DNA from: Planctomycetota bacterium
GTDB taxonomy: Bacteria; Planctomycetota; UBA1135; UBA2386
NCBI GenBank assembly: GCA_016873195.1
Contig: VGXW01000007.1
Location: 1 to 41,038 of the forward strand
Length of the DNA stretch: 41,038 nt
Direction of reading: 5' to 3'
Below are positions 5,891-16,066 of the stretch, one piece after another. The notes below the pieces were generated by a model that was not told where the DNA came from, searched no databases, and was given only the letters and a program-made list of their open reading frames with translations. Positions within the stretch are counted from its first letter, which is position 1; each line of letters begins with the position of its first letter. The position numbers and the translations under genes are program-made.

Positions 5891-5914
5891 GATTCTCCCC
5901 GCAGAGGTCCCGTG

Positions 5915-6973
5915 ATGGTCCGTTCGTCGGTGGCGTTCACGCTGTCGTTGGTGGTCGGTTGCCAGGTTGCTCCGGCGCCCGTCGCCGTGGCGCCCTGCGC
6001 CTGCCCGTCGCGGCAGGCCAACGACGAGGTGAACCGGCTGATCGCGCAGCTGCAGTTCCAGCGCCTCGGCGACGGCTTCGAGCCCGTCGAGCCCGCCGGC
6101 ACGAGCGAACTCGCCGCGCGGCTCGCGACACTGAACGAGCATCTCGGCGAACTGCTGCTGCGGCTGCCGGGCACAGGCGCGGCCGGGGCCGCGGACGCGA
6201 GTGCGGCGCGCGGGGAGCGCGCGGGGGCCGCCGCGGTCGCGGCGGCCGGCCCCGCCGACCCGGCCGACCTCGACCTGCTGCGTCAGGCGCTCGGCGTCGT
6301 CGAGCAGCAGCGGCGCGTGTGTCTGCAGAACCTCGCCAACGTGAACACGGTCGGCTGGAAGAAGCGCGCGATGTACGTGACCACGGTGATGCACGCGCCG
6401 ACCGGAGTGGAACTGCCCGTGGCCGGGCCCGTGCACATGGTCTGCACGGCGGGCGCGCTCGAGATCACCGACCGAAGCCTCGACGTCGCGATCGACGGCG
6501 ACGGCTGCTTCGCGGTGGTCCTGCCCGACGGCACGTGCGGCTACACGCGCGACGGGACCTTCCACCTGAATGCCGACGGCAAGCTCGTGACGGGTTCGGG
6601 CAACGTGCTGCTGCCCGAGATCACCGTGCCCAACGACACGCTCGAGATCTCGATCGACCCCGAAGGGTGCGTCAGCGGACGCTGTGCCGGCAGCCCCGAC
6701 ACGTCGACGCGGTTCGGCCAGCTCACGCTGCACCGCTTCGTGAACCCGTCCGGCCTGCTCGCGGTCGGCGCGAACGTGCTGCGGCAGACGGAGGCGTCGG
6801 GCCCGCCGATCACCGGCACGCCGGGCAGCAACGGCCTCGGCACCTTGAAGCAGGGCTTCGTCGAGCGCAGCAACGTGCAGGTGTTGGACGAACTCGTGAA
6901 CCTGCAGGCACTCGACCGGCAGCGCGCGGTGCTGGTCCGCGTGCTCGCGGGCTACGGCGTGTTCGTGCGCTGA
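5915..6973 (+). CDS. FlgG-like flagellar rod/hook family protein with a lipoprotein signal
   Basis: A 352-residue protein. ATG 5915 has GAGG 7 nt upstream; an adjacent GTG (5912) is less well spaced. Residues 1-15 form a signal ending in the lipobox VVGC, so the mature N-terminus is probably a lipidated Cys. A low-complexity and helical linker of about 100 residues follows. From about residue 115 the protein matches FlgF/FlgG/FlgE architecture. It has the rod N-terminal helix (LGVVEQQRRV, then NLANVNTVGWKKR), a central beta domain with LDVAIDGDGCFAV and GYTRDGTFHLNADGKLV, and the C-terminal helix SNVQVLDELVNLQALDRQRA. Ordinary FlgG (about 260 aa) is exported through the flagellar type III system and is not lipidated, so the lipoprotein signal is unusual. 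No other flagellar gene is in the window. The last 68 bp are duplicated at 9768-9835. Confidence 0.8.
   Translation: MVRSSVAFTLSLVVGCQVAPAPVAVAPCACPSRQANDEVNRLIAQLQFQRLGDGFEPVEPAGTSELAARLATLNEHLGELLLRLPGTGAAGAADASAARGERAGAAAVAAAGPADPADLDLLRQALGVVEQQRRVCLQNLANVNTVGWKKRAMYVTTVMHAPTGVELPVAGPVHMVCTAGALEITDRSLDVAIDGDGCFAVVLPDGTCGYTRDGTFHLNADGKLVTGSGNVLLPEITVPNDTLEISIDPEGCVSGRCAGSPDTSTRFGQLTLHRFVNPSGLLAVGANVLRQTEASGPPITGTPGSNGLGTLKQGFVERSNVQVLDELVNLQALDRQRAVLVRVLAGYGVFVR
6906..6973. repeat. Direct repeat, left copy (3' end of flgG-like gene)
   Basis: This 68-bp segment, ending exactly at the TGA of the flgG-like gene, recurs at 9768-9835 (offset 2862 bp) with two mismatches (6920 and 6928). The last 45 bp are identical. 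Similarity ends within a base or two on both sides. The copies bracket the three-gene accessory operon, like attL/attR of an element integrated into a gene's 3' end. Confidence 0.9.
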
Positions 6974-7147
6974 GCAAGACCCAGCGTCCCTCGCTGCCAC
7001 CAGCGATTCGGCGCTGATCGCGGGCTCGCCCCTGGCACGTTCGTGGACCAGTTCCGGAGCGGCGCGCCAGCCCTCGTCGCCTGCGCCTTCTCACGCATCC
7101 GGCTCCCCGGTAGCTTGCCGCACGACGTCAGGACCGAGTTGCCACGC

Positions 7148-7945
7148 GTGACCACCCCGCTGCACGAACTCGCAGAGCAAGCCGGTGCCGCGCTGAAGGA
7201 GCGCGTTCGCCAGCTTGGCCCCGATGCGGCCAAGGTCGCGGATGACATCCGCCGACGACAAGCCAGCTCCGTGAACATGAAGCCCAGTGCGCTGCGGGCG
7301 TTCCTGCGCGGCGAACCTTGCCGGAACGTCTTCGAGTGGGCCGAACAGGAGGCATCGCACTCGGGCCGAGACGTGGATGACCTTCTGCGGCAGGAGCTCA
7401 AGGGCTATTACGACCGCCGCCTCGACTTCGAGACGCGCGCGGGCGGCGGCGAGCACTTCCACTACTGCGCGTTGAACATGGGCGGCATGGGCGCACCCCG
7501 CTACGGCAGGTACTGCGTGGTGGATCGGCGCACGGTCGAGGACACGGCTCCGGACCCGGTGTGGGTCGCCGAGGATTCCCTCACCGGTTCGCGGTTCCGC
7601 GACGCGAGCGGCGCTCTTCTCTGGGACCGGCTCGCCGAGTGGGTGGCACCATGCCGCCTCGCGCCGGAACTCGTCGCACTCAAGCTCGCGGGAGAGCCGG
7701 TCGAAGAGTCGCCCTTGCAGGACCGGGTCTGCAGCGACGCGGACTACGTCGAAGGCCTTTCCGTGAAACCACTGGCGGCAGCCGATGTGAGCGAGATCCG
7801 ATCCGAGGAGGACGACGATCTGCAGGCGAGGGCCTTGGGCGCCGCCGTCTTCGGTGCTGGCCCCAGCGAGCAGCTCGACCTTGCCTTGCACGAAGAGGTG
7901 CGTTCCCTCGCCGCCGACCTGGGAATACGATGGGCATCCCAATGA
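7148..7945 (+). CDS. Hypothetical protein, first gene of the KGGLGR operon
   Basis: The frame gives 265 residues from GTG 7148. A GTG at 7043 would add 35 residues of poor quality, and neither has a clear ribosome site, so the start is uncertain. The protein is soluble. Residues 1-95 are helical and charged (HELAEQAGAALKERV). A central segment around 96-150 has aromatic and Gly-rich strands (HFHYCALNMGGMGAPRYG, then YCVVDRR), and the C-terminal 100 residues are acidic. I recognise no enzyme motif or known domain. It overlaps the next gene by 4 nt (ATGA at 7942-7945), so it belongs to one transcription and translation unit with the two genes that follow. In that setting it could be a sensor, effector or adaptor for the ATPase; this is inference from context only. 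Confidence 0.65.
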   Translation: MTTPLHELAEQAGAALKERVRQLGPDAAKVADDIRRRQASSVNMKPSALRAFLRGEPCRNVFEWAEQEASHSGRDVDDLLRQELKGYYDRRLDFETRAGGGEHFHYCALNMGGMGAPRYGRYCVVDRRTVEDTAPDPVWVAEDSLTGSRFRDASGALLWDRLAEWVAPCRLAPELVALKLAGEPVEESPLQDRVCSDADYVEGLSVKPLAAADVSEIRSEEDDDLQARALGAAVFGAGPSEQLDLALHEEVRSLAADLGIRWASQ

Positions 7946-8511
7946 CGCGGTTGATCGCACGCTCTGCGGATGGGTGGGCCGTGGTGGACGCCGACGGCCG
8001 GCGCTGGATGGTCAAGCCGCCCTACCGTGACGACGATCGCCAGCGACTGACCGACGCCCAGGCCGCGCGTGCGCTGCTCGACGAGGACCTGCACCCGGAC
8101 GCGAGGGACTTCGACGGCTGGGGCGACCTGTGCCGCTATCTCGCCGAACAGCGGGTCCTGGAGGCCACTCCCGAGGAGAAGGAACGCGCGCAAGTGGCAG
8201 CCGCGGCCCTTCTGCGCAGAGCCACGCCGGGGCAGCTCGAGGCGCATCTGGCGCAACTGGAGAAGTGGTTGCGCGATGGCCGCAGGGACGGCGTCGCCAG
8301 GGCTCTCAAGGCCATGCGGCAGGCTCCGGCGGTCGAGTCGTCTCCGGCATTGAAGGACCGGATCCTGGAGTTGCTGACCCGTGCCTTGGACGCACCCACC
8401 TGGGTGGACTCGCGCCGCTACTCCATGTGGACCGTCGCCGATGAGGTCTCCGTGCAGCGTTGCGCGACGGAGATCCGCAACCGCAGGTGCATCCTGCTGC
8501 CAGCAGCGTGA
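7942..8511 (+). CDS. Hypothetical protein, second gene of the KGGLGR operon
   Basis: A 189-residue protein is read from the ATG that overlaps the upstream stop (ATGA). An in-frame ATG 12 nt earlier (7930) is also possible and has a slightly better GGGA upstream. The N-terminal 25 residues look like two beta strands (WAVVDADGRRWMVKPPY). The rest is mostly helical, with an amphipathic Ala/Leu/Arg-rich stretch around residues 70-145 (KERAQVAAAALLRRATPGQL), perhaps a helical-repeat or coiled region. There is no signal peptide, membrane segment or recognisable catalytic motif. It overlaps the ATPase gene by 4 nt (GTGA at 8508-8511). Together with its neighbours it is likely one component of a multi-protein complex. 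I do not recognise the family. Confidence 0.65.
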   Translation: MTRLIARSADGWAVVDADGRRWMVKPPYRDDDRQRLTDAQAARALLDEDLHPDARDFDGWGDLCRYLAEQRVLEATPEEKERAQVAAAALLRRATPGQLEAHLAQLEKWLRDGRRDGVARALKAMRQAPAVESSPALKDRILELLTRALDAPTWVDSRRYSMWTVADEVSVQRCATEIRNRRCILLPAA

Positions 8512-9764
8512 AGGTCACGACGTTCTACTCCTTCAAGGGAGGCCTGGGCCGTACCCTGTTGCTGGCCTGGACGGCCCGTGCCCTGGTGGCGAAGGGCAAG
8601 AAGGTCGTGGCGCTGGACCTCGATCTCGAGGCACCGGGGCTGCACTACAAACTCGGCGTTGCCAGCGATGCCGACCTCGGCGCCGGTGTCGTGGGGCTGA
8701 TCACGAGCTTCCAGCGCGGTGACCCGCCGCCCGCGGACCTGCGGACCTGGCTGCGGCCGGTGCCGGGCACCGATCTCCTGCAGCTGTTCCCGGCGGGGTC
8801 ATCCTGTTTCGGCGACTACTGCCGCAGCCTCGCGGACGTTTCGTGGGAAGACCTGTTCTTCGGACCCAATCCGCAGGGCGTCAGGTTCTTCACCTGGTTG
8901 CGCGAGGCCATCGAGCGCGACGTGGGGCCAGATCACCTGTTGATCGACGCGCGCACCGGTATCACCGAGATGGGAGGAGCCGCGCTCGGATTGCTGGCGG
9001 ATCAAGTGTTGGCCCTGGTGGGCACCTCGCCCGAGGGCGTCGATGGCACGAGGGACGTCTTGCGCAGCGTCGTGGCGATGCCCAGGGGCGGGCGAGCGGC
9101 ACCGAGGATCGGGGTCGTTCTGAGCCGCATTCCTGGGTCGCTCGACGCCGACGATCTGCAGCGCATCCGGCGCACGATCCGGGATCACGTCTCGGAGGAG
9201 GCAACACCGCTGACCGCGACGGTCGCCGTCGAGTTGCCTCTGGTCGTGCGCTCGGAACCTGGCCTGCAGGTCAACGAACTCGCTGCACTCGACTCGGACG
9301 ATCTGCGGCTGCACAGCGACTATCGGACCGTGCTCGATTGGGTTCTTGGGGAGGCTGTGCCGACGAGCGCTCCTGGCGACATGCTGGCAACCTCGGCATC
9401 TCATGAGAGCATTCGCGATGTCGTGGCCCTGCAGCGACGGCTCCTCGGGAAGCAGGCCGAGAGGTACCTGCCCGAGGTGGCGAACAGCCTCAGCAGTCTC
9501 GGCGCCAAGCTCAGTGAACTCGGCCGCCGCGAAGACGCGCTTGCCGCCGCCGAGGAGGCCGTAGCGATCACGACCGAGCTGACCGCGCAGCGGCCCCACC
9601 TGCACGCACCGACACTGCAGTGGAGGGCACAGACCCTGCGCACTCTGCTCGAGCAGTCAGGTCGTGCATCCGACTCCAGCTCGCCGCTCACCGCGGCCCT
9701 TGCCTTGTTGGCGGAACTGGGGCCACCGCGCACCGAGCCCGACCCCACCTCGCGCGGCGGGTAA
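8508..9764 (+). CDS. MinD/ParA-like ATPase with KGGLGR deviant P-loop and TPR-like tail
   Basis: A 418-residue protein. GTG 8508 overlaps the preceding stop and places the P-loop at the very N-terminus, as in MinD/ParA proteins. Motifs are FYSFKGGLGRTLL (residues 6-18), DLDLEAPG (37-44) as the second motif, and LLIDARTG (144-151) as Walker B. In ordinary ParA/MinD the loop is KGGVGK[ST]. Here the usual Walker lysine is Arg15, while the signature Lys10 is kept. I recall a family described as KGGVGR-motif variant ATPases that is found with TPR repeats in conflict and defence contexts, and this fits. Residues about 300-385 (RYLPEVANSLSSLGAKLSE, REDALAAAEEAVAI) match a TPR of the type seen in STAND/NB-ARC partners, but only about one to two units remain. 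The tail ends 3 nt before the right direct repeat and may be truncated. Confidence 0.8.
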   Translation: MKVTTFYSFKGGLGRTLLLAWTARALVAKGKKVVALDLDLEAPGLHYKLGVASDADLGAGVVGLITSFQRGDPPPADLRTWLRPVPGTDLLQLFPAGSSCFGDYCRSLADVSWEDLFFGPNPQGVRFFTWLREAIERDVGPDHLLIDARTGITEMGGAALGLLADQVLALVGTSPEGVDGTRDVLRSVVAMPRGGRAAPRIGVVLSRIPGSLDADDLQRIRRTIRDHVSEEATPLTATVAVELPLVVRSEPGLQVNELAALDSDDLRLHSDYRTVLDWVLGEAVPTSAPGDMLATSASHESIRDVVALQRRLLGKQAERYLPEVANSLSSLGAKLSELGRREDALAAAEEAVAITTELTAQRPHLHAPTLQWRAQTLRTLLEQSGRASDSSSPLTAALALLAELGPPRTEPDPTSRGG

Positions 9765-9767
9765 CGA

Positions 9768-9835
9768 AGGCACTCGACCGGGAGCGCGCCGTGCTGGTCC
9801 GCGTGCTCGCGGGCTACGGCGTGTTCGTGCGCTGA
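9768..9835. repeat. Direct repeat, right copy
   Basis: This second copy of the flgG-like gene's last 68 bp has two substitutions (9782 and 9790) and still encodes ALDRERAVLVRVLAGYGVFVR followed by a stop. One change is Gln to Glu and the other is silent. No start codon or upstream part of the gene accompanies it, so it is a fragment, not a gene. It starts 3 nt after the ATPase stop. Confidence 0.9.
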
Positions 9836-9864: not shown

Positions 9865-10638
9865 TCAGCCGCGCCGCGGCGGTTCCTCGGGCGCCACCTC
9901 GAACTGTTCGGCCAGCCGCACGATCGCGCCGCGCAGTCTCGGCAGCAGACCGGCGAGTTCCGTCGGGGGCAGTACCGGTGCCAGTTCGTCGCGCAGCGCG
10001 CGGTCGTCGACGCCGTCGAGTGCCCTGCGGAGTTCGGCGGCCAGTTCGGCCCGCGTCATGTGCTTCCGCCTGGCAAGCTGCGGCAGGCGCGACTCGATCC
10101 GTGCAAGCCGTCGGTCGAGCACGGCGAGGTCGGGCGTCGCGCCGAGGCGTGCAGCGAGGAAGTAGACGTCGTAGAGGTCGCGCAGCAGGCGCCGCTCGTT
10201 CCATGCCGCGAGCTTGTGTGCCAGCGCACAGGCGAGGTCCATCACGCGCACGAGGCGGGAAGGTTGCCCTTGCGCGATGGCGAGACCGGCGGTCGGCACG
10301 GGGATCGACGGACAGTGGAGGTCGACGTTGGCCTCGATCTGCAGCGCCACGCCGTCGACCCGCAGCCGCGCACGCACCATCTTCGAGTGTGCAGCGATCT
10401 GCAGGTCCGCCCCCTCGATCTCCTGCAGCACGCTGCGCATGCGGCCCAGGATGTCGTTCTTCGAGCGGAACGGAACGAACACGTAGTCGACGTCGTTCGT
10501 CGCGCGCGGGCAGTCGTGCAGCCGTAAAGCGATCCCTCCCTTCACGATGGCGTGCTCCTCGAAGACCTCGGCGAAGCGGTGCAGGACCCACAGCAGCAGG
10601 CCGTCGCTGGTGGCGGGACGCGGCAGGGTAGTACTCAT
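9865..10638 (-). CDS. abiEii: AbiEii-family nucleotidyltransferase toxin
   Basis: A 257-residue protein. Its ATG (10636-10638) overlaps the stop of the upstream abiEi-like gene (ATGA). Family motifs are IVKGGIALRL near residue 31, corresponding to the KGGTAL loop of the polymerase-beta-like fold. RATNDVDYVF (about 45-54) holds the metal-binding DxD. LAHKLAAWNERRLLRDLYD (about 145-165) matches the conserved KLaA-R-RDlyDly segment. AbiEii proteins are toxins of type IV toxin-antitoxin systems that act in phage abortive infection; related MenT enzymes modify tRNA 3' ends. The length is normal to slightly short. It converges with the KGGLGR operon, and its stop lies 29 bp from the end of the right repeat. 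Confidence 0.82.
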   Translation of the reverse strand: MSTTLPRPATSDGLLLWVLHRFAEVFEEHAIVKGGIALRLHDCPRATNDVDYVFVPFRSKNDILGRMRSVLQEIEGADLQIAAHSKMVRARLRVDGVALQIEANVDLHCPSIPVPTAGLAIAQGQPSRLVRVMDLACALAHKLAAWNERRLLRDLYDVYFLAARLGATPDLAVLDRRLARIESRLPQLARRKHMTRAELAAELRRALDGVDDRALRDELAPVLPPTELAGLLPRLRGAIVRLAEQFEVAPEEPPRRG

Positions 10639-11234
10639 CGGGAGGCAAGCACGCGTTCGGCGAACGCCACGAACTTCGGGTTGCGGTAGCGTCGCAGGTG
10701 GCCGGCGAGGCGCTGCGGATCCAGACGCGAGTAGTCGACGTCCGAGAAGACGTCGAACGTGTAGCGCCGGCCTCGCAGGTGGAAGTAGAGGACGTCGAGT
10801 GCAGCCTTCTCGGCATCGGCCCACCTCACGCCCGCCACCGAGTGGTGGCCGAAGTCGAGGTGCGGCGCGATGCGCACGTGCACGATCTCGAAGCCCCTCG
10901 CGCGGTAACTGCACGGGCGGCCCACCTTCGCGGCGATCAGCTGGCGGTCGGTCGTCGTGCCGATCAGCAGTTCCTTCGCGAGCACGGTGCCGAAGCTCAC
11001 GTAGGAGGCCGGCGCGAGGCGTTGGCTAAGCGTCGGCAGGTCGAATGGCTCCAGCACGTAGAAACCGCGGCAGAACCGGTGCAGGACGAGGTCGCGTTCG
11101 AGCGCGCGGACGCGGCGACGGAACGCCGCGGGGTGGGGTTCGGCCAACAGGGTCTGGAGGTCGGCCTTCGACAGCACGCCGCGCTGGGCTGCGGCGACGC
11201 GCGCCACGGCGCGCGCGTCCGATGTCGATTTCAT
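10635..11234 (-). CDS. abiEi: AbiEi-family antitoxin / transcriptional repressor
   Basis: A 199-residue protein. Residues 1-60 form a winged-helix-like domain (ARVAAAQRGVLSKADLQ), followed by the strand-turn RFCRGFYVLEP. The C-terminal domain includes YVSFGTVLAKELLIG, FEIVHVRIAPHLDFG and VRWADAEKAALDVLYF, all typical of AbiEi-type antitoxins, which bind inverted repeats at their own promoter. The start at 11234 (MKSTSD) is preferred. An upstream ATG at 11276 would translate through a 58-bp palindrome, and a good promoter places the transcript start only a few bases before 11234. No ribosome site is visible, which is consistent with a leaderless mRNA. It overlaps abiEii by 4 nt. Confidence 0.8.
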   Translation of the reverse strand: MKSTSDARAVARVAAAQRGVLSKADLQTLLAEPHPAAFRRRVRALERDLVLHRFCRGFYVLEPFDLPTLSQRLAPASYVSFGTVLAKELLIGTTTDRQLIAAKVGRPCSYRARGFEIVHVRIAPHLDFGHHSVAGVRWADAEKAALDVLYFHLRGRRYTFDVFSDVDYSRLDPQRLAGHLRRYRNPKFVAFAERVLASR

Positions 11235-11283
11235 GTTGCGGGAAAAGATACAGATCTGTGTCTTTTCCCGCAACATGAAATCG
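11226..11283. promoter_or_regulatory. 58-bp near-perfect palindrome at the abiEi start (candidate operator)
   Basis: Two 29-bp arms meet at CAGATCTG (centre between 11254 and 11255) with a single asymmetric pair, T11249 against G11260. The arms include CGATTTCATGTTGCGGGAAA. The palindrome is markedly more AT-rich than its surroundings. It covers the first codons of abiEi and its predicted promoter. AbiEi proteins autoregulate through inverted repeats, so an operator role is likely. In RNA the odd pair becomes G-U, so the transcript could also form a continuous hairpin. Confidence 0.7.
11245..11273 (-). promoter_or_regulatory. Predicted sigma70-type promoter of abiEi (leaderless)
   Basis: On the minus strand, -35 TTGCGG (11268-11273) and -10 TATCTT (11245-11250) are separated by exactly 17 bp inside the palindrome. 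The abiEi ATG lies 10 nt after the -10 box, so the mRNA would have almost no leader. On the plus strand the same place reads TTGCGG-N17-TGTCTT; the one asymmetric base favours the minus direction. Confidence 0.5.
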
Positions 11284-11321
11284 CGGCGCTGCCGCAGCCC
11301 CGCCCGCCCGCCACCTGCCCG

Positions 11322-12479
11322 CTACAGCGGGAACGCGCCCTCGTTGACGCCGCGCCCCCCGAGCGCCAGCACCTCGGCGAGCTGTTCCTTCAACTGCGGC
11401 GTGACCTGCGCGTAGACGTCGGTCACCAGCGTCTCGTCGGCCGGCGGCCCGTGCTGCTCGGCCGCGGCGATCGCGTCGTTGACGCGCTGCGCGATGCCTT
11501 CCTTCAGCGCCGCCTCCTCGGCGTCGTCCCACAGGCCGCGCCCCACCAGGTACGCGCGGCAGCGGTCGATCGGGTCCTTCTTCTCCCAGGCCACGACCTC
11601 CGCGTCGTCGCGGTAGCGCGTCGGGTCGTCGCTGCTGCTGTGGCCGAGCCGGCGGTAGGTGACCGCCTCGACGAACGTCGGACCCTCGCCGCGCCGCGCG
11701 CGGTCGACGGCCGCCCTGGTCACCGTGTAGACCGCGAGCACGTCGTTGCCGTCGACGCGCACGTAGGGCATGCCGTAGGCCTTGCCCTTCTGCGCGATCG
11801 TCTCGGACGCGCTCTGCTTGCCGATCGGCACCGAGATCGCCCACTGGTTGTTCTGGCAGAACAGCACGCACGGCGCTTGGTAGACGCCGGCGAAGTTCAT
11901 GCCGCAGTGGAAGTCGTTCGCCGAGGTCGCGCCGTCGCCGAGGAAACCGAGCACGACGACGTCGTCGCCGCGCAGGCGCGCCGCCATCGCCGCGCCGACC
12001 GCGTGGCTGATCTGCGTGCCGATCACCGACGACATGCCGTGGTAGTTGCCTTCCTTGAGCGTGTAGTGGCAGGGCATCTGGCGGCCCTTGCAGCGGTCCT
12101 TGCCGTTGCCGATCAGCTGGTTCACGGCCTCCTCGAGCGACAGCCCGCGCATCAGCGCCGCCGCGCCCTCGCGCAGCGCGGGGAACACCCAGTCGCGCCG
12201 CTCCAGCGCCGCGACCGAGCCGATCGTCGCCGCCTCCTGGCCGAGGATCGGCCCGTAGAAGCCGATGCGGCCCTGCCGCTGCAGCATCAGCACGCGGCGG
12301 TCGAACTCGCGGATCTGCACCATCTGCCCGTAGAGGTAGCGCAGCAGCTCGGGCGGCAGGTTCGGGTCCTTGCCCTTCGGCACGGTGCCGTCGTCGTCGA
12401 GCAGGCGCACGAGGCCCTGCGAGGCGGGCGCGGGGGGTGCCGGCTGGTCGGCGGGCGGCGGGGGCGGCTTCTTGACCAT
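11322..12479 (-). CDS. 2-oxo acid dehydrogenase E1 alpha subunit (second copy, distal)
   Basis: A 385-residue thiamine-diphosphate-dependent dehydrogenase alpha subunit (pyruvate or branched-chain 2-oxo acid type). The ThDP motif runs from GDGATSANDFHCG to CQNNQWAIS (GDG to NN), and the phosphorylation-type loop reads YRRLGHSSSDDPTRYR. The first 25 residues are a Pro/Ala-rich extension. ATG 12479 has GGAG 6 nt upstream. It is the last gene of the operon, 22 bp after E2. A close paralogue lies at 14954-16066, sharing PKGKDPNLP-type N-termini, LQRQGRIGFY and VRVDGNDVLAVY. A complex needs only one E1 alpha per E1 beta, so the two copies may give different substrate ranges with a shared E1 beta and E2. 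The substrate cannot be assigned from the sequence. Confidence 0.88.
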   Translation of the reverse strand: MVKKPPPPPADQPAPPAPASQGLVRLLDDDGTVPKGKDPNLPPELLRYLYGQMVQIREFDRRVLMLQRQGRIGFYGPILGQEAATIGSVAALERRDWVFPALREGAAALMRGLSLEEAVNQLIGNGKDRCKGRQMPCHYTLKEGNYHGMSSVIGTQISHAVGAAMAARLRGDDVVVLGFLGDGATSANDFHCGMNFAGVYQAPCVLFCQNNQWAISVPIGKQSASETIAQKGKAYGMPYVRVDGNDVLAVYTVTRAAVDRARRGEGPTFVEAVTYRRLGHSSSDDPTRYRDDAEVVAWEKKDPIDRCRAYLVGRGLWDDAEEAALKEGIAQRVNDAIAAAEQHGPPADETLVTDVYAQVTPQLKEQLAEVLALGGRGVNEGAFPL

Positions 12480-14953: not shown

Positions 14954-16066
14954 TCACAGCGGGAAATGGCCGACGGCGCCGCCGCCGCCGCCCTGGGCCA
15001 GCCACTCGCGCAGTTCCTGCCGTTGCTCCAGCAGCTGCGGCGACAGGTTCATCGTGACGTCGTCGAACAAGGTGTCGGGCTCGGGCATCGGCCGCCCTTC
15101 GGCCTCGTGCACGGCCTGCGCGATGGCGGCCTTGGCGCCCTCGAAGCACTGCTGCTCGAAGGCCTCGGTCCAGAGGTTCTTGTGCTTCAGGTAGAGCTGG
15201 AAGCGCACGATCGGATCCTTCTGCCGCCAGGCCTCGTAGGCCTGGGGATCGCGGTACCGCGCGGCGTCGTCCGAGCTGCTGTGCGAGGCCATGCGGTGCG
15301 TCAGCGTCTCGACCAGCGTCGGTCCCTCGCCCTTGCGCGCGCGGTCGACCGCCTCCTTGCAGACGCGGTAGACGGCGAGCACGTCGTTGCCGTCGACGCG
15401 CACGCCGGGCATGCCGTAGGCCTCGGCCTTGACGGCCATCGTCTCGCTCGCGGTCTGCCTGCCGCTCGGCACCGAGATCGCGTAGCCGTTGTTCTCGCAG
15501 ACGAACACGACCGGCGCCTTGTAGACGCCCGCGAAGTTGAGGCCGGTGTGGAAGTCGTTGCTGCTGGTGCCGCCGTCGCCGCAGAACGTCATGAACACGG
15601 TGTCGTCGCCGCGCATGCGCGCCGCCATGCCGGCACCGGCGGCCTGCGTCAGCTGCGTTCCGATCGGCGAGCTGACCGAGAAGAAGTTCGCCTCGCGGAA
15701 GCTGTAGTGCACCGGCATCTGCCGGCCCTTGCTCGTGTCGCCGGAGTTGCCGAACCACTCGCTGACGATGCGATCGAGCGGCACGCCGCGCAGCAGCAGG
15801 ATGCCGGGCTGGCGGTAGGCCGGGAACAGCCAGTCGCTGTCCTGCAGCGCGTAGGCGGCGCCGAGGTGGCTCGCCTCCTGGCCCGTCGACTGCAGGTAGA
15901 AGCCGATGCGGCCCTGGCGCTGCAGCGCGAGCCCGCGTTCGTCGAGCGCGCGCGTCTGCACCATCAGCCGGTAGAGCTTCTGCAGCTCCGGGCCGGGCAG
16001 GTTCGGGTCCTTGCCCTTCTGGGCCTTGCCGTCCGGGGCGAGGATCGAGAGCGGTTCGGAGCTCAT
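14954..16066 (-). CDS. 2-oxo acid dehydrogenase E1 alpha subunit (first copy)
   Basis: A 370-residue ThDP-dependent alpha subunit with the full motif GDGGTSSNDFHTG to CENNGYAIS. The substrate-loop residues are HSSSDDAARYRDP, and GRQMPVHYSFREANFF lies before them. The ATG overlaps the stop of lipA (ATGA at 16063-16066), so it is translationally coupled to lipoyl synthase. It is related to but clearly diverged from the second E1 alpha (11322-12479). It ends in a glycine run (GGGGGAVGHFPL), while the paralogue ends GAFPL, so the last residues are conserved. Normal length. It is probably the main partner of E1 beta, 62 bp downstream. Confidence 0.9.
   Translation of the reverse strand: MSSEPLSILAPDGKAQKGKDPNLPGPELQKLYRLMVQTRALDERGLALQRQGRIGFYLQSTGQEASHLGAAYALQDSDWLFPAYRQPGILLLRGVPLDRIVSEWFGNSGDTSKGRQMPVHYSFREANFFSVSSPIGTQLTQAAGAGMAARMRGDDTVFMTFCGDGGTSSNDFHTGLNFAGVYKAPVVFVCENNGYAISVPSGRQTASETMAVKAEAYGMPGVRVDGNDVLAVYRVCKEAVDRARKGEGPTLVETLTHRMASHSSSDDAARYRDPQAYEAWRQKDPIVRFQLYLKHKNLWTEAFEQQCFEGAKAAIAQAVHEAEGRPMPEPDTLFDDVTMNLSPQLLEQRQELREWLAQGGGGGAVGHFPL

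Follow-up and report, generated by a model that had tools for sequence, protein, structure and literature searches.

The 58-bp palindrome upstream of the abiEi gene in a stretch of Planctomycetota DNA of 41,038 nucleotides (here termed the window) is very probably the autoregulatory operator of the abiE operon, fused with the operon's promoter and with the start codon of its first gene. This reading is drawn from sequence comparison across 44 distinct abiEi loci. The first-pass annotation of this DNA had proposed that one palindrome could be operator, promoter and start-codon context at once, and the fixed register and covarying halves of the element in these loci argue strongly for that proposal. 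The features discussed are collected in table 1.

Table 1. The abiE operon of the window and the elements of its operator-promoter (positions in the window; relative positions count from the A of the abiEi ATG as 0).
Feature	Position	Strand	Remarks
58-bp palindrome	11226..11283	.	29-nt arms, single mismatch 11249/11260
conserved 50-bp operator-promoter element TTCAT...ATGAA	11230..11279	-	same register in 44 distinct loci; halves covary
mirror box TTCAT, outer box of left half-site	11275..11279	-	without coding or known promoter role
-35 box TTGCGG	11268..11273	-	fixed at -39..-34; TTGACA-like in relatives; overlapped by outer part of left half-site
-10 box TATCTT	11245..11250	-	17 nt from -35 box, 10 nt before ATG
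mirror-image promoter-like boxes TTGCGG (11236-11241), TGTCTT (11259-11264)	11236..11264	+	
abiEi start codon ATG	11232..11234	-	within outer box ATGAA (11230-11234) of right half-site
abiEi, 199-aa antitoxin and winged-helix repressor	10635..11234	-	PADLOC and fold match
abiEii, 257-aa nucleotidyltransferase-type toxin	9865..10638	-	PF08843, 1.6e-15

The operon lies on the minus strand, where an E1-alpha dehydrogenase gene (PF00676), whose 3′ end is at 11322, is followed by the palindrome, abiEi and abiEii; the start of abiEii overlaps the stop of abiEi (ATGA; junction CGATGAGT). The AbiEi protein matches PADLOC model PDLC02241 (2.3e-20) and, weakly, NCBIfam NF047376 (7.1e-07, below its cutoff), with no Pfam match. 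An AlphaFold model built from nine relatives (pLDDT 92.7) has the N-terminal winged helix and C-terminal antitoxin domain of the abiEi family. In a PDB fold search its best match was 6y8q, the AbiEi of Streptococcus agalactiae (E 4.2e-06), followed by 1zel (Rv2827c); global TM-scores reach just 0.42-0.58, in keeping with known differences in how the domains are oriented (PMC7319586). A sequence search of the PDB had returned only a spurious match, which was set aside, whereas the fold search gave AbiEi structures. Downstream, an AbiEii (DUF1814) gene follows abiEi in 24 of 25 loci, locus L031 being the exception. By sequence the operon is assigned to the AbiE type IV toxin-antitoxin systems, with toxicity and neutralisation as predicted activities.

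Two features of the wider neighbourhood are recorded here. The minus strand carries two similar E1-alpha-like dehydrogenase open reading frames (ORFs), 11322-12479 and 14954-16066, in a span of less than 5 kb; the second was judged from its translation only. A 68-bp direct repeat (6906-6973 and 9768-9835, 97% identical) carries the last codons and stop of a flagellar-hook-like gene (5912-6973). Between the repeats lie 2.8 kb that contain two plus-strand ORFs, 7043-7945 and 8508-9764 (ParA/CbiA-like), an arrangement suggesting that an element was inserted at the gene's 3′ end and that its target was duplicated.

The palindrome and its one unpaired position at 11249/11260, as first described, are real, and the boxes lie where they had been placed on both strands. 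Its arms (11226-11254 and 11255-11283) have 29 nt each, abut without a gap and are 97% complementary, the sole mismatch being T11249/G11260. The minus strand reads TTGCGG (11273-11268), 17 nt, TATCTT (11250-11245), TTCCCGCAAC and ATGAAATCG (11234-11226). The plus strand reads TTGCGG (11236-11241), 17 nt, TGTCTT (11259-11264), 10 nt and ATGAAATCG. When at most one mismatch is allowed, the runner-up inverted repeat in the 41-kb window has arms of 14 nt and shuffled windows give arms of 12-14 nt; the palindrome is far beyond chance.

Long perfect palindromes are often mobile repeats, and the element could in principle be a dispersed palindromic repeat, a transposon end or a site-specific recombination site that stands before abiEi by chance. 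Copy number in the genome had been put forward as the check, and an exact search with the core found a single copy in the window's own 5.5-Mb assembly (89% complete); a 17-nt arm query with up to three mismatches added only three weak matches. The dispersed repeat was rejected on this count, and the fixed register of the element relative to abiEi in 44 loci of diverged sequence from five phyla reduces chance placement to a negligible probability.

These loci come from two sources: eight relatives were taken from the genome collection, and the others were obtained by whole-genome searches of Planctomycetota and four more phyla, namely those of the Acidobacteria, 'Proteobacteria', Fibrobacteres and L008 genomes. 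The 44 distinct loci belong to Planctomycetota, Acidobacteria, Krumholzibacteria, 'Proteobacteria' and Fibrobacteres. A first set holds 25 loci, with protein identities to the window copy of 34-77% (28% for L021). A second set holds 29 evaluable new loci, many of them from related Fibrobacteres and a few identical. No relatives were found in viral contigs and plasmids, and a class-level search returned the same genomes as the order-level search, with no added loci.

The 44 distinct loci share one layout, TTCAT, -35 box, 17 bp, TAnnnT, 10 nt and ATGAA, in sequences that differ from locus to locus. The dyad axis falls between 11254 and 11255, at -20.5 from the A of the abiEi ATG. Complementarity about this axis averages 17.2 of 25 positions in the first set, against 5.3-8.0 at other axes, and with 24 of 25 pairs the window copy comes closest of all to perfect symmetry. 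The first set also keeps the key positions of the -10 box (T at -16 in 25/25, A at -15 in 23/25, T at -11 in 25/25), each base of TTCAT at -45..-41 (21-23 of 25 loci) and each base of ATGAA at 0..4 (24-25 of 25). The outer bases of TTCAT are held less strictly than its CAT core: across the 44 distinct loci, exact TTCAT occurs in 28 and CAT in 37. Symmetry ends sharply at TTCAT and ATGAA. Beyond these boxes, the 4 bp at either end of the window copy show no conserved pairing, so these four outer pairs lie outside the conserved element.

The second set was evaluated with axis and boxes predicted in advance. The best axis was exactly -20.5 in 24 of the 29 new loci, and TAnnnT stood at -16..-11 in 24 of the 29 evaluable ones. 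At L051, L061 and L076 the axis is shifted by 0.5-1 bp, as a unit with the boxes; L057 has a displaced axis and an uncertain start codon, L075 has no clear dyad and L073 is masked. In the first set, the axis of L021 is displaced by half a base pair and the other loci keep the common register. Inverted repeats spanning the operon's own promoter, the arrangement expected of an AbiEi operator, are thus found.

Two genomes with several abiEi loci deserve mention. Fibrobacteres genome G511 has three abiEi-like loci (L039, L040 and L041) with an identical operator-promoter layout and different sequences, so that their operators are possibly insulated from one another. In genome G434 (L031/L032) the second abiEi copy is split into two frames, with no recognisable AbiEii just downstream; the operator-promoter of L031 has decayed (13 of 25 pairs, -10 box TGCTTT), a natural contrast to the intact loci.

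A simple sigma-70 scan did not call the minus-strand promoter, since TTGCGG and TATCTT match only 7 of 12 consensus bases by Escherichia coli standards. What argues for a promoter is therefore its conservation across loci.

The two halves of the element change together. At positions 7-19 from the axis there are 205 within-locus pairs, whereas swapping halves between loci leaves 147 ± 9 (none of 20,000 permutations reached the observed value). Half-swap permutations ignore tree structure, a limitation that thinning by identity answers only partly: covariation persists among 11 loci with less than 60% mutual identity (0/20,000) and, weakly, among five with less than 50% (164/20,000). The start-codon box cannot show covariation, as one of its sides is fixed; its mirror TTCAT is conserved without a coding role. 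The link between operator sequence and DNA-binding helix 3 of AbiEi is modest (partial Mantel 0.275, P about 0.005); it exceeds the control with the C-terminal domain (0.188, P about 0.05) only weakly and does not count as proof.

Palindromic symmetry can serve DNA or RNA, and here the mispairs are informative. With three promoter-fixed positions left out, the 44 distinct loci hold 45 G-T mispairs, against 61.6 ± 4.3 expected from swapped halves, and 26 A-C mispairs, against 40.5 ± 4.0. Because G-T mispairs are avoided as A-C mispairs are, the symmetry fits a DNA operator and not an RNA hairpin, whose stem would tolerate G-U. This bears on the proposal that read-through transcription of the E1-alpha gene (stop near 11322) yields an RNA whose very stable hairpin masks the start codon of abiEi or terminates transcription. 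Such a read-through RNA (102 nt) would fold at -59.2 kcal/mol (z -9.2) with its AUG paired, yet the minus-strand stem has no U tract, on which ground an intrinsic terminator was rejected, and a transcript starting after the -10 box holds one arm only and lacks the fold. The symmetry axis, moreover, follows promoter spacing where that spacing varies (L051, L061 and L076). We regard selection for the hairpin as very unlikely; as a side effect of the operator, it is possible that the hairpin insulates abiEi from read-through translation.

The position of the start codon decides whether part of the palindrome is coding. The frame is open from an ATG at 11276, and tblastn alignments of the longer form with relatives extended into the element, so the palindrome might encode the first 14 residues of a 213-aa AbiEi. 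Against this, relatives have in-frame stops inside or just before the element (at -33 in L010 and at -21 in L041) or no upstream start (L014 and L043). Coding by the palindrome was rejected because of these stops, and its probability is close to nil. The inner ATG is the first residue of the 199-aa protein conserved in relatives, and the conserved spacing from the -10 box points to the same codon.

With the inner ATG as start, the operator reading leaves little space for a leader. Between the end of the -10 box and the ATG lie 10 nt, and in none of the 44 loci does this interval contain a Shine-Dalgarno-like motif (AGGA, GGAG or GAGG). A transcript starting 6-8 nt past the -10 box would have a leader of approximately 3-5 nt; the abiEi mRNA is apparently leaderless or nearly so. 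The first-pass annotation had predicted almost no leader for abiEi, and the fixed register and covarying halves in 44 loci argue strongly for that prediction.

Symmetry also places promoter-like boxes on the plus strand. A true two-sided promoter would yield an antisense RNA or small protein from the plus strand, its direction biased by position 11249/11260. Both strands of the window do read TTGCGG-17-TNTCTT-10-ATG, and TAnnnT occurs on both strands in 21 of the 44 loci. The plus-strand -10 box of the window, on the other hand, lacks the key A, and in the first set the match to consensus is higher for the forward than for the reverse direction in 22 of 25 loci, with TAnnnT in 23/25 forward and 9/25 reverse. 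The plus-strand ORF at 11233-11415 is antisense to the 3′ end of the E1-alpha gene, and no conserved gene was found on that strand to partner it. Functional two-sidedness is very unlikely. The plus-strand boxes are probably weak or inactive, a by-product of operator symmetry, and the plus-strand ATGAAATCG is a mirror half-site, not a gene start.

The idea that one asymmetric base sets direction does not hold in general. Apart from the 21 loci with TAnnnT on both strands, L029 lacks the A of the -10 box on both, and the abiEi side is constant in all 44 loci, L029 included. Direction is not set by one base and would instead reflect the sum of the -35 box, the -10 box, downstream context and gene position. 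In the window, by what is generally known of sigma-70 promoters, the G at the second position of the plus-strand -10 box probably weakens that side.

As an autoregulatory operator, the element could work as follows. Two molecules of AbiEi, each through its N-terminal winged helix, would occupy the two half-sites of the 50-bp core. Bound AbiEi would cover the -35 box, spacer, -10 box, transcription start and start codon of abiEi and thereby keep RNA polymerase off (negative autoregulation). With AbiEi in short supply, the minus-strand promoter would become active and give an abiEi-abiEii mRNA whose 5′ end lies only a few nucleotides ahead of the ATG, and abiEii would be translated by coupling across the ATGA overlap. 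Because one stretch of DNA has to be operator, promoter and start codon, the complement of the start codon would recur in mirror position, as the conserved TTCAT ahead of the -35 box. The element itself, its single copy, its fixed register, the coordinated change of its halves, the gene identities and the AbiEi fold are observations; AbiEi binding, repression, the transcript start and weak plus-strand activity are what we infer from them, and the AbiEi of the window is only about 12-14% identical to the AbiEi proteins that have been tested.

It seems likely that these features define a branch of AbiE spread over at least five phyla, in which the antitoxin start codon serves as a specificity box within the repressor site, mirrored by a conserved TTCAT beyond the -35 box, the operon is expressed only from a leaderless mRNA, the same DNA bears three constraints, and the operator drifts with its repressor. 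A full-text literature search for AbiEi and 'leaderless' gave no description of the start-codon-fused layout; related promoters may appear in Supplementary Figure S8 of PMC3985639. Work on AbiEi operators covers two species, and in neither does the layout resemble that of the window element, which is a clear case of start codon, core promoter and repressor site on the same bases. The 44 natural operator-repressor pairs, in one register and with drifting sequences, form a data set for the recognition code of AbiEi. A leaderless toxin-antitoxin mRNA may be translated differently on altered ribosomes (MazF-type damage), and this could bear on when AbiE acts.

A similar design is known outside the AbiE family. 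Operators of the C proteins of restriction-modification systems, such as C.Csp231I, combine a leaderless autoregulator mRNA, palindromic operators over the promoter and a self-regulating bicistron (PMC4824078); C proteins belong to an unrelated protein family, and the window system is not a member. Within the family, Rv2827c of Mycobacterium tuberculosis, a winged-helix antitoxin, binds 23-bp inverted repeats overlapping the promoter of Rv2827c-Rv2826c, arranged as two repeat pairs (IR1-IR4) with 13-bp gaps and bound with negative cooperativity (PMC7319586). The window, in contrast, has one symmetric gapless pair. In S. agalactiae, AbiEi represses abiE via inverted repeats (TGTTGCTTTTATACCACAAATAT-N3-AAAATTGTAGTGTAAAAGCAACA) that span a promoter whose boxes are 17 bp apart, the -35 box TTGCTT lying inside the outer TGTTGC box; transcription begins 26 nt upstream of the ATG, and the transcript has a ribosome-binding site (PMC3985639). 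The window system resembles it in its abiEi-abiEii bicistron with a 4-nt overlap, its promoter-spanning inverted repeats, its 17-bp spacer and a TGTTGC that overlaps the -35 box in the same way. It differs in that TGTTGC and GCAACA span 42 bp instead of 49, and in that its right half-site, with no Shine-Dalgarno-like motif, ends on the start codon itself.
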